This document shows positions 6,575-51,805 of a DNA stretch of 64,000 bases, piece by piece. The stretch spans positions 124,001 through 188,000 of the forward strand of contig NZ_CP019646.1 in NCBI RefSeq assembly GCF_001999965.1, written 5' to 3'. This DNA comes from Limihaloglobus sulfuriphilus (lineage in GTDB: Bacteria > Planctomycetota > Phycisphaerae > Sedimentisphaerales > Sedimentisphaeraceae). The notes under the pieces were generated by a model. The model did not search any database. It saw nothing but the letters and a program-made list of their open reading frames with translations, and was not told the DNA's origin. The translations under genes were made by a program, and so were the position numbers. Position 1 is the first letter of the stretch. Every line of letters begins with the position of its first letter.

Positions 6575-6624
6575 TCGAATTCTGGCAGATGACTGATTTA
6601 AACCAATTTCAACGGTGATGACAG

Positions 6625-47997: not shown

Positions 47998-48035
47998 AGT
48001 ATCTGCCTAAACTGTTTTCTGGTTGTAATTACTGA

Positions 48036-48064
48036 ATTTTACTGCGGAACGGCTGTAATTTCAA
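48036..48064 (-). promoter_or_regulatory. Promoter of the aldo/keto reductase-acetylesterase pair
   Basis: On the minus strand TTGAAA, 17 bases, TAAAAT, with a predicted start about 30 bases before the reductase ATG. Confidence 0.4.
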
Positions 48065-48124
48065 GCCGGATTAAAAGTTTTCAATTTTTGTATAATCATT
48101 TGCGGCACGCTTTTTAAGATAAAC

Positions 48125-48757
48125 TCACTGCCCGTATATAAGGAAGCTCACCGTGTCTATGACAAAGTAAAGCCCGAATCCTGCCAGCATTACTGCACAA
48201 ACGGCAAGGGCGGCAGTCATGCCTTTGCGCCCTGCGATAGCCGCACCCTTATTTGTCGTAAAGGTGACCAGCTCCAGCCAGATCAGGTCCGCCAGCCAGT
48301 GAACCAACGCGAAGACAGGCAGCAGCCAGTAACCGAAACCTATTGCCCTGGTTGTCAGGCCAAGCCCGATAGTAGCCCACCACAGCAGAAAGTACGGATT
48401 GGATATAGACAGAAATATTCCCGTGATAAACGGGCTTCTGCCGGGATTTTCGGCTTTTTCCGCATGTACTCCTTTTCTAATGTCGCTGAGCAGCCCCCAC
48501 GCCATATAAAGCAGTATTGCGCCGCCGAGAAGGCCGGTAACCGTGCGGGCAATATCGGTTTTGACCAGGGTATCCAGTCCCGCGGTGAGAAGCAGTATCA
48601 GGGGAAATTCCACTACCGCGTGCCCCAGGGCTATCATAAGCCCGCTGTGGCGGCTTTTCATGCCGTGGCTTATCGCCGCGGCGGTTACCGGTCCCGGTGA
48701 CATGGCACCAGAACATGATATGGCAAAAGAACTGGCTAAAAATAAAAGTATGTTCAT
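48125..48757 (-). CDS. LysE/RhtB-family exporter
   Basis: 210 residues with about six hydrophobic segments. The family motif SGAMSPGPVTAAAISHGMKSRH lies in the first helix and loop (residues about 16-37), and YFLLWWATIGLG appears later. Members export amino acids or similar small molecules. The ATG at 48757 is preferred because the predicted promoter would start transcription near 48765, below the alternative GTG at 48766. That gives a very short leader. No regulator pair of the LysG type is adjacent. Confidence 0.85.
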   Translation of the reverse strand: MNILLFLASSFAISCSGAMSPGPVTAAAISHGMKSRHSGLMIALGHAVVEFPLILLLTAGLDTLVKTDIARTVTGLLGGAILLYMAWGLLSDIRKGVHAEKAENPGRSPFITGIFLSISNPYFLLWWATIGLGLTTRAIGFGYWLLPVFALVHWLADLIWLELVTFTTNKGAAIAGRKGMTAALAVCAVMLAGFGLYFVIDTVSFLIYGQ

Positions 48758-48771
48758 AGTAATCACGGTTT

Positions 48772-48799
48772 ATTATCGGGAGATTTTGATTAGTGTCAA
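48772..48799 (-). promoter_or_regulatory. Promoter of the LysE-family gene
   Basis: On the minus strand TTGACA, 16 bases, GATAAT, predicting a start near 48765 and an almost leaderless transcript. Confidence 0.4.
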
Positions 48800-48879
48800 T
48801 GAATTTAATTCGCTTAAGTGCTTTTAAACGCTTTAAACAATGTGTTTTGCAATTATTTTCAAAAAATTATTTTTTTTGT

Positions 48880-48908
48880 TTGACTATGTGTAACATATGT
48901 GTTATATT
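48880..48908 (+). promoter_or_regulatory. Strong promoter with no coding gene behind it
   Basis: TTGACT, 17 bases, TATATT, starting transcription near 48915 into a stretch without a plus-strand reading frame of note that ends at a strong terminator. Confidence 0.5.
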
Positions 48909-49097
48909 CTATTTCAGAAAGAAGGAAGTGTAAAACAAACATTTCCAATAAACATTAAAGAGTCGCTTATTCGTAGTGGTTTTATAGCGGCTTGAGAGAG
49001 AAAGTAAGTTAAAATAAGTTAGTTGATTTTATCCGCTCGTAATTCTCTCGTTTTATGTTCTTTTAAAACATAATACGTGTAATAATATCTGATATTG

Positions 49098-49154
49098 ACA
49101 CAATCTCTTTCTCCCTTTTCCCTATCAGGAGAGTACAGGAAGGCCTCATTCCCA
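49098..49154 (+). repeat. 57-bp direct repeat, copy 1
   Basis: Matches the copy at 49324-49380 at 54 of 57 positions. Its end, with downstream bases to 49173, forms a hairpin CAGGAAGGCCT/AGGCCTTCCTG (11-bp stem, 49136-49173). Confidence 0.8.
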
Positions 49155-49323
49155 ATCCCAAAAGGCCTTCCTGGCTCCCTACTTTAGCGGCAGAAGGGAT
49201 TAGAGTCTTTATATCAAGGAGAAACCAGTTAGTGCTTTTTGCGGCCGGGGGAAGCTTTTTTACGAAGCCGCGGCCGAATCGAAGAGCCGGTTCACCTCCA
49301 TGGTAACCTTTGAAGTTGAAGAA

Positions 49324-49380
49324 ACACAATCTCTTTCTCCCTTTTCCCTATCAGATGAGTACAGGAAGGCCTCACTCCCA
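49324..49380 (+). repeat. 57-bp direct repeat, copy 2
   Basis: Second copy, starting 226 bases after the start of the first. Its hairpin is CAGGAAGGCC/GGCCTTCCTG (49362-49396), so pairing survives although the loop sequence differs. Confidence 0.8.
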
Positions 49381-49458
49381 AATCAGGGCCTTCCTGATAC
49401 TCTTCGTTTTCCCTTTTCCCTAATCCCATAATTAAGAGATTTAAATAAAAGAAGTTGG

Positions 49459-49491
49459 ATCCCGGAGCTGTCCCCCTCCGGGATTTTTTTT
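49459..49491 (+). terminator. Strong intrinsic terminator
   Basis: ATCCCGGAG and CTCCGGGAT form a perfect 9-bp stem with an 8-base loop, followed by eight T residues. This is the clearest terminator in the window, and no coding gene lies upstream of it on this strand. Confidence 0.8.
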
Positions 49492-49667
49492 GCGCGCTCA
49501 TATCGTGAAATCAGGCTGCACGTATGGTTTAAAATACAGAACTCTCGCATTATAACAATCTCATTACATTCGAAACTTAACTTCGGAGATATCTGCAGGG
49601 GCAGTTTTAGGATTTTTTTAAAAAATTATTTTTTCCTATAACACCTTGATAATAACACTTTTATTTT

Positions 49668-49685
49668 GGTTAAAATCTTTTAACC
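49668..49685. promoter_or_regulatory. Operator-like palindrome upstream of the LacI gene
   Basis: GGTTAAAATCTTTTAACC is a perfect palindrome with 8-base arms and a 2-base centre, just above the -35 element of the lacI-type gene. Confidence 0.5.
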
Positions 49686-49688
49686 GCC

Positions 49689-49706
49689 CGATAAAATGTT
49701 TTAACC
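49689..49706. promoter_or_regulatory. Second, imperfect operator-like site
   Basis: CGATAAAATGTTTTAACC keeps one full arm and six of eight bases of the other. Its centre is 21 bp from the centre of the first site, two helical turns, so dimers on both would lie on the same face. Confidence 0.4.
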
Positions 49707-49717
49707 TTAAATTTATA

Positions 49718-49746
49718 TTGACATCTCATACCGGCAGTGTTATATT
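49718..49746 (+). promoter_or_regulatory. Promoter of the LacI-family regulator gene
   Basis: TTGACA, 17 bases, TATATT, near perfect. Predicted start about 49753, with a 45-base leader. Confidence 0.6.
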
Positions 49747-49770
49747 TTCCAAGTGTAGTGGTAATTCTTA

Positions 49771-49783
49771 AATAACAGTTATT
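49771..49783. promoter_or_regulatory. Palindrome in the regulator gene leader
   Basis: AATAAC-A-GTTATT lies just after the predicted transcription start. It shares AATAAC/GTTATT arms with the palindrome at 51885-51898 and may be a second class of operator for autoregulation. Confidence 0.35.
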
Positions 49784-49798
49784 ATAGATTGTACGCAT

Positions 49799-50860
49799 AT
49801 GCCGGTAACAATTAAACAAATCTCAAATGAGTTAGGTCTATCCCCCGCAACGGTTTCGCTGGCTATTCGCAACAAGAAAGCCGGCAAAAAGAGACTTTCC
49901 CCCGAGACCGTCAGCCGCGTACAGGAAACCGCACGCAAGATGGGCTACAGGCCAAATACCCTGGCTACCAGTCTGATCAGCAGCACTTCCACCACAGTCG
50001 GGGTTTTGCTCGGCTCGCTTAGTTTCGGCTCTGAATCTCTCCTGGACGGATTCAAAATGTCATTCGGGCCAGATTACACTTCGTTTTTGTCGGTATATAA
50101 CGGCGAGGGCCAACGTGAAAAACGTGAACTTGAAATGCTCATCGGGCACAGGGTGTGCGGTTTGATAGCCGCGTTTTCCGGAGCATCTGAAAACATAAGT
50201 CTCTATAAAGACGCTGCTTTACGTTACAAGATACCGCTTGTTGTGATAGAAAGGCAGATTCCGGAGCTTAATGTTCCGGTTGTAAGGTCTGATCATTTTA
50301 ACAGTACCTATCTGGCCGCAAAGGCTTTGCAGGATCTTGGCCACAAGCGGATTATGTATGCAAGTGTCAGTTTTTCAGTAAGTTCTGAGATGTCGGAACT
50401 TCATTCACAGGGATATTACAAAGCAATGCGTGAGGCAGGCCTTGAAAACTGCATTTGTGTTAATGAACGCAGGGGGATCAAGGACTGGTACAAGTCGGGA
50501 AATCTGCGGGCCCAGGTTTCTGAGATAATGAAGACCTGGCTGCTCCAGAAAGACAGGTCAACAGCGGTTCTGGTCGATCATGACTGGCTGGCGTATGAGA
50601 TATTAAGTGAATGCAGCGAGCTGGGTATTAGAATTCCTGAAGATTTATCATTGATGGGAATCGGAGATTATGTTTTCAGCTCTTTCCCCTATGTAAGCCT
50701 AAGTACTGTGGCCTCCGCGGGTGATTATCCGATGCAGACAATGATTGGCCGCGGGGCGGCAAAACTCTTGATGGAGCTGGTTGCCGGCGACGAATGGGAC
50801 GGGAATGATGTTATTCTGCCTGTTAAGGTTGTTCTCAGATCAACTACCAGAGAAATATGA
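49799..50860 (+). CDS. LacI-family transcriptional regulator
   Basis: 353 residues. The N-terminal helix-turn-helix and hinge are typical (TIKQISNELGLSPATVSLAI, then ETARKMGYRPNTLA). The rest is a periplasmic-binding-protein fold for a sugar effector (ALQDLGHKRIMYAS, TAVLVDHDWLAYEILSE, PEDLSLMGIGDY). The ATG at 49799 lacks a clear ribosome-binding site. It sits at the head of a run of secreted carbohydrate-active genes and probably controls them and itself; palindromes before its own gene and before the 51950 gene are candidate targets. Confidence 0.92.
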   Translation: MPVTIKQISNELGLSPATVSLAIRNKKAGKKRLSPETVSRVQETARKMGYRPNTLATSLISSTSTTVGVLLGSLSFGSESLLDGFKMSFGPDYTSFLSVYNGEGQREKRELEMLIGHRVCGLIAAFSGASENISLYKDAALRYKIPLVVIERQIPELNVPVVRSDHFNSTYLAAKALQDLGHKRIMYASVSFSVSSEMSELHSQGYYKAMREAGLENCICVNERRGIKDWYKSGNLRAQVSEIMKTWLLQKDRSTAVLVDHDWLAYEILSECSELGIRIPEDLSLMGIGDYVFSSFPYVSLSTVASAGDYPMQTMIGRGAAKLLMELVAGDEWDGNDVILPVKVVLRSTTREI

Positions 50861-50941: not shown

Positions 50942-51805
50942 ATGAAGTTGTTAATGGTAAGTTTAATGTTAGCAGTGTTTACTGTTGTCGGAACTTTAAA
51001 TGGAGAGACTATCTTTGAGACATTTGACTCGGATCCTCTTGCCAACGGATGGACAGAAGACGAAAATGAAACCGGTAGTTCGTTTACCTACCAAAATGAT
51101 CTCACTACCGGCTATGTTGGCGGTGGGTATCTGGAAGTTTTCATGCAGCGCAATCCAAACACAGACCGTTTTACAACTTCCCTGAGTCAGACATATACGC
51201 AGGGCCAGGAATTCTGGATTGAATTTGACAGTTCGACTCAGGCCCACTATCAGTACCAGCGGGGCTTGTTTGGCGTATTTAACAGTGCTTCTGATAACTC
51301 CACCAACGTTATAGCAGATAATTTCTGGAGGCAGAAGACGTCGTCTTCGAGCTCGAATTTTGCACACAGGGTACAGAGCTATGATTCCAGCGGGTCATCT
51401 ACGATTTATACCTCAGACTATGTGTTTGTCAAAAATGAACCCATCCGCGCCAAGCTCCATTATTATGTTGACGGAAGCAGTAACGGGATAGCCGAATTTC
51501 AGCTTTGGCGGCTCAATGAAGCAGGTGCCGCCGATGATGTTCTGCTTGCTGATGCTACTGGTGCAAATTCTGCTGTAATTCTTGATGCCGGTAACACACT
51601 GAGTTTTGATGTGTTTGGTTTTGGAAACAACGACGGCACACTTAACACAACTTACACCCAGAGATCATGGGTTGATAACCTTTATTTCAGCACAGACGGG
51701 GCTAACACCGAATATGTGGATCCGGCTTTTGCAGTCCCTGAACCTGTTTCAGTTCTGTTGTTTGGACTGGGCAGCCTGACTGTACTGCGTCTGAAAAAGA
51801 ATTAG
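50942..51805 (+). CDS. PEP-CTERM surface protein with jelly-roll-like domain
   Basis: 287 residues from the ATG at 50942 (AAAGG upstream). Signal peptide (1-21), then one beta-rich domain of about 230 residues (FETFDSDPLANGWTED, GGYLEVFMQR, QEFWIEFDSST, RGLFGVFNSASDNS, WVDNLYFSTDG). The end is a PEP-CTERM sorting signal: VPEPVSVLLFGLGSLTVL, then a basic tail. An exosortase elsewhere in the genome should cut at PEP and anchor or release the protein. The domain recurs in the next genes, where it is fused to enzymes, which suggests carbohydrate binding. Confidence 0.82.
   Translation: MKLLMVSLMLAVFTVVGTLNGETIFETFDSDPLANGWTEDENETGSSFTYQNDLTTGYVGGGYLEVFMQRNPNTDRFTTSLSQTYTQGQEFWIEFDSSTQAHYQYQRGLFGVFNSASDNSTNVIADNFWRQKTSSSSSNFAHRVQSYDSSGSSTIYTSDYVFVKNEPIRAKLHYYVDGSSNGIAEFQLWRLNEAGAADDVLLADATGANSAVILDAGNTLSFDVFGFGNNDGTLNTTYTQRSWVDNLYFSTDGANTEYVDPAFAVPEPVSVLLFGLGSLTVLRLKKN

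Follow-up and report, generated by a model that had tools for sequence, protein, structure and literature searches.

The segment at 48,880-49,491 of the window, by which we mean the whole 64,000-nucleotide stretch of Limihaloglobus sulfuriphilus DNA analysed here, is well supported as a noncoding transcription unit with repeated modules that each join a CU-rich word to a hairpin. Computation showed the anatomy of the unit, its paralogous family, the covariation of the hairpins, the invariance of words and hairpins among long copies and the preferential complementarity of the words to the starts of PEP-CTERM genes. PEP-CTERM proteins are a very large class of sorted surface proteins, and this genome holds 88 matches to their motif. 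We give about even chances to the reading that the unit encodes a multicopy anti-Shine-Dalgarno RNA, LhrC-like in its action, which would repress a PEP-CTERM surface-protein regulon. The genome is a single contig of 3.87 Mb, and the features of the unit and its flanks are as follows.

48125-48766, minus strand: LysE-type exporter gene flanking the unit upstream
48880-48908, plus strand: promoter, -35/-10 elements TTGACTATGTGTAACATATGTGTTATATT with a near-palindromic spacer (genome-wide pattern search)
49056-49068, plus strand: boxA-like antitermination signal TGTTCTTTTAAAA (comparison with the rRNA-leader boxA)
49098-49182, plus strand: module 1, CU word (49103-49125) and hairpin CAGGAAGGCCT..AGGCCTTCCTG with a C-rich loop
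49183-49206, plus strand: purine-rich segment AGAAGGGATTAGAG, predicted pairing partner of the module 1 CU word (local fold)
49212-49306, plus strand: spacer hairpin separating modules 1 and 2 (local fold, -35.4 kcal/mol)
49324-49406, plus strand: module 2, CU word (49329-49351) and hairpin (repeat and fold analysis)
49404-49424, plus strand: third CU word GTTTTCCCTTTTCCCTAAT, without a hairpin of its own (repeat analysis, family D2)
49457-49491, plus strand: intrinsic terminator, with 11 pairs and a run of 8 T at 49457-49487 (terminator search)
49799-50860, plus strand: LacI-type regulator gene flanking the unit downstream
50942-51805, plus strand: PEP-CTERM gene 1.5 kb downstream of the unit (ORF listed from 50927)

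The promoter, TTGACT-17-TATATT, agrees with the consensus at 10 of 12 positions and carries TG before the -10 element, as expected from the near-consensus promoter of the preliminary description. The absence of a good plus-strand reading frame was borne out as well: no plus-strand ORF of at least 50 amino acids is present in 48827-49799, where the sole reading frames are three minus-strand ORFs (88, 69 and 55 amino acids) that overlap. At the level of sequence, the promoter and the intrinsic terminator of an LhrC-like trans-acting small RNA are thus present and an ORF is absent. The terminator is the best within 48000-50500, the range examined. The duplicated repeats (49098-49155 and 49324-49381) are 58 nt long, 95% identical and spaced by 226 nt. 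The hairpins CAGGAAGGCC/GGCCTTCCTG form in each repeat (80-nt windows, -28.5 and -27.8 kcal/mol), and their arms keep pairing while the inner stem ends and loops vary, as had been noticed earlier. The CU-rich word described before each hairpin was found, together with the third word. With the covariance model R1, whose alignment includes the window modules, modules 1 and 2 score 64.5 and 67.1 bits, respectively. The 577-nt RNA folds far better than its shuffles (z -6.3, 0/100 shuffles as good). The local fold of 49105-49206 reaches -46.1 kcal/mol and leaves CU word 1 mostly paired by prediction. In the predicted folds the CU words are only partly unpaired (0.12-0.57), which speaks against the base-pairing reading, and the C-rich loops are 0.9 unpaired. 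The unit is regarded as noncoding on the evidence of a promoter common to three paralogs, the boxA, the terminator and the covarying hairpins.

TGTTCTTTTACAA and AGTTCTTTTACAA are found in the genome's own rRNA leaders. The boxA-like TGTTCTTTTAAAA agrees with the rRNA-leader boxA TGTTCTTTTACAA at 12 of 13 positions. A sample of 928,000 strand-bases held no other exact occurrence of TGYTCTTTTAMAA, and a match with up to one mismatch would be expected 0.007 times in the unit. The match is supportive rather than a blind test, because the pattern was written after both sites had been seen. The agreement with the host rRNA leader is what would be expected of boxA-type antitermination, and the window unit is probably transcribed in this mode. 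It resembles the rRNA operons, which are boxA-dependent and untranslated, in having after its promoter a boxA nearly identical to that of the rRNA leaders; it differs in not being rRNA and in that its antitermination is read from sequence only. The idea that the CU words are themselves boxA- or nut-like sites was unsupported beyond the single boxA. The motif TTTA[AC]AAGTTAA, which the rRNA leader has in common with the long modules, was left unused since it is also common in dispersed repeats. As a separate observation, TTTACAAGTTAA lies directly 3′ of the rRNA-leader boxA and recurs in several long modules, and TTTAAAAAGTTAA is frequent among the other intergenic repeats (sites noted for these sequences: L110 1265, L111 1265; L007 5955, 7951 and 8237; L040 4309 and 4618).

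The count of the module elsewhere in the genome, proposed earlier as a check, gave with model R1 a family of ten modules at five loci, all with strong scores and confined to this genome. A search of the genome DNA with the window unit gave three further partial matches. By DNA comparison these fall in units of about 5.3 kb at unrelated sites (L007 5236-10557, L008 5899-10891 and L009 8940-3370), which are 94-97% identical. Each is ordered as promoter, boxA-like TGCTCTTTTAAA, 3.3-kb noncoding leader, two PEP-CTERM ORFs and terminator, and the sequence shared by the units starts just before the -35 element and stops right after the terminator. The leader carries the CU-word/hairpin modules, seven of them in the L007 copy, where a strong internal terminator is also found at 6589-6617. 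A 297-bp module is present in one, two and apparently three copies in the different units. The promoter pattern TTGACTNNNTGTNNCRTATGTGKTAKATT occurs at four places in the genome, and at no others when three mismatches are allowed (reversed control, 0); they are the window unit and the three 5.3-kb units. At the fifth locus, at 3.56 Mb (L075), two modules lie in a 1.2-kb array preceding another PEP-CTERM gene, so that four of the five module loci are directly upstream of PEP-CTERM genes. That CU-word leaders are general to PEP-CTERM genes was rejected: among the scanned loci L069-L098 only L075 carries upstream modules. The PEP-CTERM-like ORF that comes first in the 5.3-kb units (L007 8549-9187) had no relative in a peptide-pattern search of about 85,000 species genomes. 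No mobilising gene was seen in the three 5.3-kb units, and a tRNA-Arg (CCG) gene is located at L007 10634-10709, about 80 bp past the unit end. Elsewhere, dispersed intergenic repeats pad pilin-like and PEP-CTERM operons (CCGCAGATTACGCAGATT, CATGAAGAGCATGAAGGACATGAAG...CTTCATGG and AATTAGGAATTA; L044 2300-9900, L040 6500-9000 and L043).

Outside this genome, no homologous DNA of note was found in 58 other genomes among the relatives, nor in phages or in plasmids. The covariance-model search in relatives suggested by the preliminary description was carried out; at E 0.001, R1 matched none of 117 other relatives and none of 391 other genomes of the phylum. One weak match (E 0.02) near a contig edge was set aside, and six stretches of viral contigs with the CU pattern did not score as modules. 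No Rfam family reached its gathering score in the window, a permissive Rfam scan of the locus gave chance-level matches only, and no covariance-model homology to LhrC or another described RNA family was detected in Rfam.

Among seven distinct modules, 92% of the stem cells of the alignment are paired and four pairs have changed on both sides. In the two window rows of this alignment an N was inserted at a bulge to hold the register, and N cells were set aside. The covariation score was reached by 0/500 shuffles. The signal was lost when the partners were slid, a control that leans in favour of the structure because the structure was drawn from the same sequences. The leaders of the three long copies show 79 substitutions in 3313 nt. 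At this rate 6.8 would be expected in the 285 nt made up by two hairpins and the six CU words that could be compared, where there are none. Among the substitutions in predicted stems, those that keep pairing through G-U on the plus strand outnumber those giving A-C, which would suit a minus-strand RNA (6-12 vs 0-4, p 0.016-0.17 depending on the parameters). Covariation together with the absence of substitutions in words and hairpins indicates selection on these elements and, with the plus-strand G-U bias added, supports a plus-strand RNA.

The CU words have the form UUUCUCC(C/U)UU and are antisense to AAGGAGAAA, a sequence of the type that forms the Shine-Dalgarno plus spacer of PEP-CTERM genes. 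Pairing was computed for the starts of 283 genes (38 PEP-CTERM, 84 other signal-peptide and 161 other genes) taken from the window, from 20 evenly spaced 20-kb stretches and from the best PEP-CTERM loci, with start sites picked by a script under one rule for all classes rather than mapped experimentally. The mean pairing energy of the word of the paralog L007b is -12.3 kcal/mol with PEP-CTERM starts, -7.9 with other signal-peptide starts and -7.5 with the rest; for the window word the values are -12.5, -8.8 and -8.5 kcal/mol, respectively. The third CU word also prefers PEP-CTERM starts, as do other CU words of the family; no such preference is shown by the L007b loop or by a non-CU stretch of the same RNA. 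Shuffled words reached the class difference in 0/150 cases for each of three words. With reversed words about half of the difference remains, and part of the effect is therefore due to purine-rich starts. A strong Shine-Dalgarno sequence is not the whole explanation, because the 16S tail shows no class difference among SD-matched genes (-9.69 for PEP-CTERM vs -9.43 and -9.66). The string GGAGAA occurs in 18/38 PEP-CTERM starts and in 10/245 others (p 1.7e-11); with similar starts removed it remains in 10/28 PEP-CTERM starts (p 2.4e-6). A perfect complement of at least 9 nt to L007b is found in 10/38 PEP-CTERM starts vs 0/245 others. In an unbiased set of 289 genes, nine of them PEP-CTERM, the top three and five of the top ten predicted targets of L007b are PEP-CTERM genes; the window's own word ranks them more weakly, with two to three in the top 15. 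Redundant CU-rich sites complementary to the SD regions of a defined gene set, as in LhrC, are thus present. In two complete genomes of the same family that lack the modules, GGAGAA is found in 5/25 PEP-CTERM starts (p 0.034 vs 18/38) and the pairing of PEP-CTERM starts is intermediate (-10.2). Since both are somewhat raised in these relatives, the motif may in part be older than the RNA. The GGAGAA excess is largest where the RNA exists, yet it is not absent elsewhere.

The chief rival to a base-pairing RNA is a role in cis. The CU-word/hairpin arrays would then regulate or stabilise the 5′ leaders of PEP-CTERM operons, through processing, stability or attenuation at internal terminators; the window unit itself would be a shortened copy whose genes have been lost. 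This reading, which we consider rather doubtful, draws on the location of four of the five loci, the internal terminator of the L007 leader and the differing module number of the long copies. It also counts against a trans-acting RNA that the paralogs head coding operons as their leaders and are not free RNAs. However, the window unit retains promoter, boxA, modules and strong terminator with no gene before that terminator. Furthermore, three PEP-CTERM genes that follow modules are without GGAG (GTGAGGAAAGTATCATG, AAAAGGAAGATTACCATG and AAAGGAATTAGTCATG), whereas distant PEP-CTERM genes have the complementary motif. Lack of GGAG behind modules would be expected of genes that evade an RNA acting in trans, but a sample of three is small.

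The preliminary description had suggested a sponge or protein-binding RNA with repeated modules. The noncoding unit and its modules stood, given the promoter, boxA, terminator and covariation; the sponge is not the favoured reading, as the CU words are antisense to PEP-CTERM ribosome-binding sites, which is why a base-pairing regulator fits, and the GGA strings lie in stems. An RNA that binds a CsrA/RsmA-type protein or a CU-tract binder is considered unlikely. The modules are repeated and contain AAGGA/CAGGA strings, AAGGA also occurs in PEP-CTERM starts, and a weak CsrA-like domain (27 bits) is encoded in the genome. However, a sponge of the CsrA type is disfavoured because its GGA strings sit in stems while the loops carry CCCAAAT, and the CsrA-like domain belongs to a 179-amino-acid protein with a hydrophobic N-terminus. 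A composition-driven CU binder needs no base order, yet the order within the CU words matters for their complementarity to the starts. The unit shares with CsrB/RsmZ the repeated hairpin modules in a single noncoding RNA; it differs in that GGA is not in its loops and in offering complementarity to mRNAs instead. The 179-amino-acid protein (L163 1240-1779, minus strand) is possibly a membrane-anchored relative of CsrA.

Selfish modules spread by duplication, with a start-site complementarity that has no function, are a still less probable explanation. The 94-97% identical copies at unrelated sites, bounded at promoter and terminator, and the many other dispersed repeats of the genome would fit a mobile element. 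Against it, the ORF lists of the 5.3-kb copies, whose termini were compared by eye, held no transposase-like ORF; covariation and the unchanged words and hairpins indicate selection, and the complementarity is specific to PEP-CTERM starts. A dispersed transposable family lacking conserved hairpins, the case raised earlier, thus applies only in that a small dispersed family exists; its hairpins have been conserved, and no transposase came to light in it. That minus-strand genes for small proteins (88 and 69 amino acids) account for the repeat is scarcely credible: both overlapping ORFs read GxRPSCTxLIGKREKEIV through it, but a 5-nt insertion in the shared part of an L007 module breaks the frame, the hairpin pairs covary, and promoter, boxA and terminator are all on the plus strand.

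For the anti-Shine-Dalgarno RNA we propose the following route. A noncoding RNA of about 580 nt would start at the promoter common to the three paralogous units, be transcribed with antitermination of the boxA type and end at the intrinsic terminator. Each of its modules would couple a stable hairpin to a CU-rich word, and these words would serve as redundant antisense sites for the SD and spacer of PEP-CTERM mRNAs, and their pairing would block ribosome binding and lower translation, so that one RNA family may tune translation across a large PEP-CTERM regulon. We infer from the sequence features described above that the unit is transcribed with antitermination and that its RNA binds in vivo, with repression as the effect. 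In Listeria monocytogenes, three redundant CU-rich sites of the multicopy small RNA LhrC block the SD of a surface-protein mRNA (PMC4132741). Several genomic copies, redundant CU-rich (UCCC) sites and surface-protein SD sequences as the aim are common to LhrC and the window RNA, which differs in its length of about 580 nt, its boxA, its planctomycete-like genome and its paralogs, the 3.3-kb leaders of PEP-CTERM operons. No sequence relation to LhrC is shown, and membership by descent is not claimed because there is no Rfam match. RsaE, FsrA, SprD, RNAIII and other small RNAs likewise block the SD with a C-rich motif (summarised in PMC4132741). The difference here is the tandem modules, each with a long CU word and a long hairpin, and the predicted PEP-CTERM targets.

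The window encodes PEP-CTERM and dockerin-like proteins. The PEP-CTERM gene at 50942 is the second-best predicted target of the L007b CU word (-18.8 kcal/mol). The carbohydrate neighbourhood noted earlier is real, with a SASA esterase and the LacI-type regulator, but it did not prove to be the key link. Relatives of the LacI-type regulator were found in Phycisphaeraceae; these, with the PEP-CTERM and dockerin-like proteins, indicate the Planctomycetota.

A study of another bacterium (PMC9850573) deals with the RpoN-dependent transcription of a PEP-CTERM gene. No literature joining PEP-CTERM, small RNA and Shine-Dalgarno was found. As a tentative wider reading, the modules may form a lineage-specific system in which a free boxA-transcribed RNA and the giant leaders of PEP-CTERM operons determine in trans how strongly the PEP-CTERM surface proteome is translated, with the module-led PEP-CTERM genes, which are without GGAG, escaping it. 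If the anti-Shine-Dalgarno RNA is real, the PEP-CTERM class would gain a post-transcriptional regulator, and with it a clear gene-by-gene prediction.
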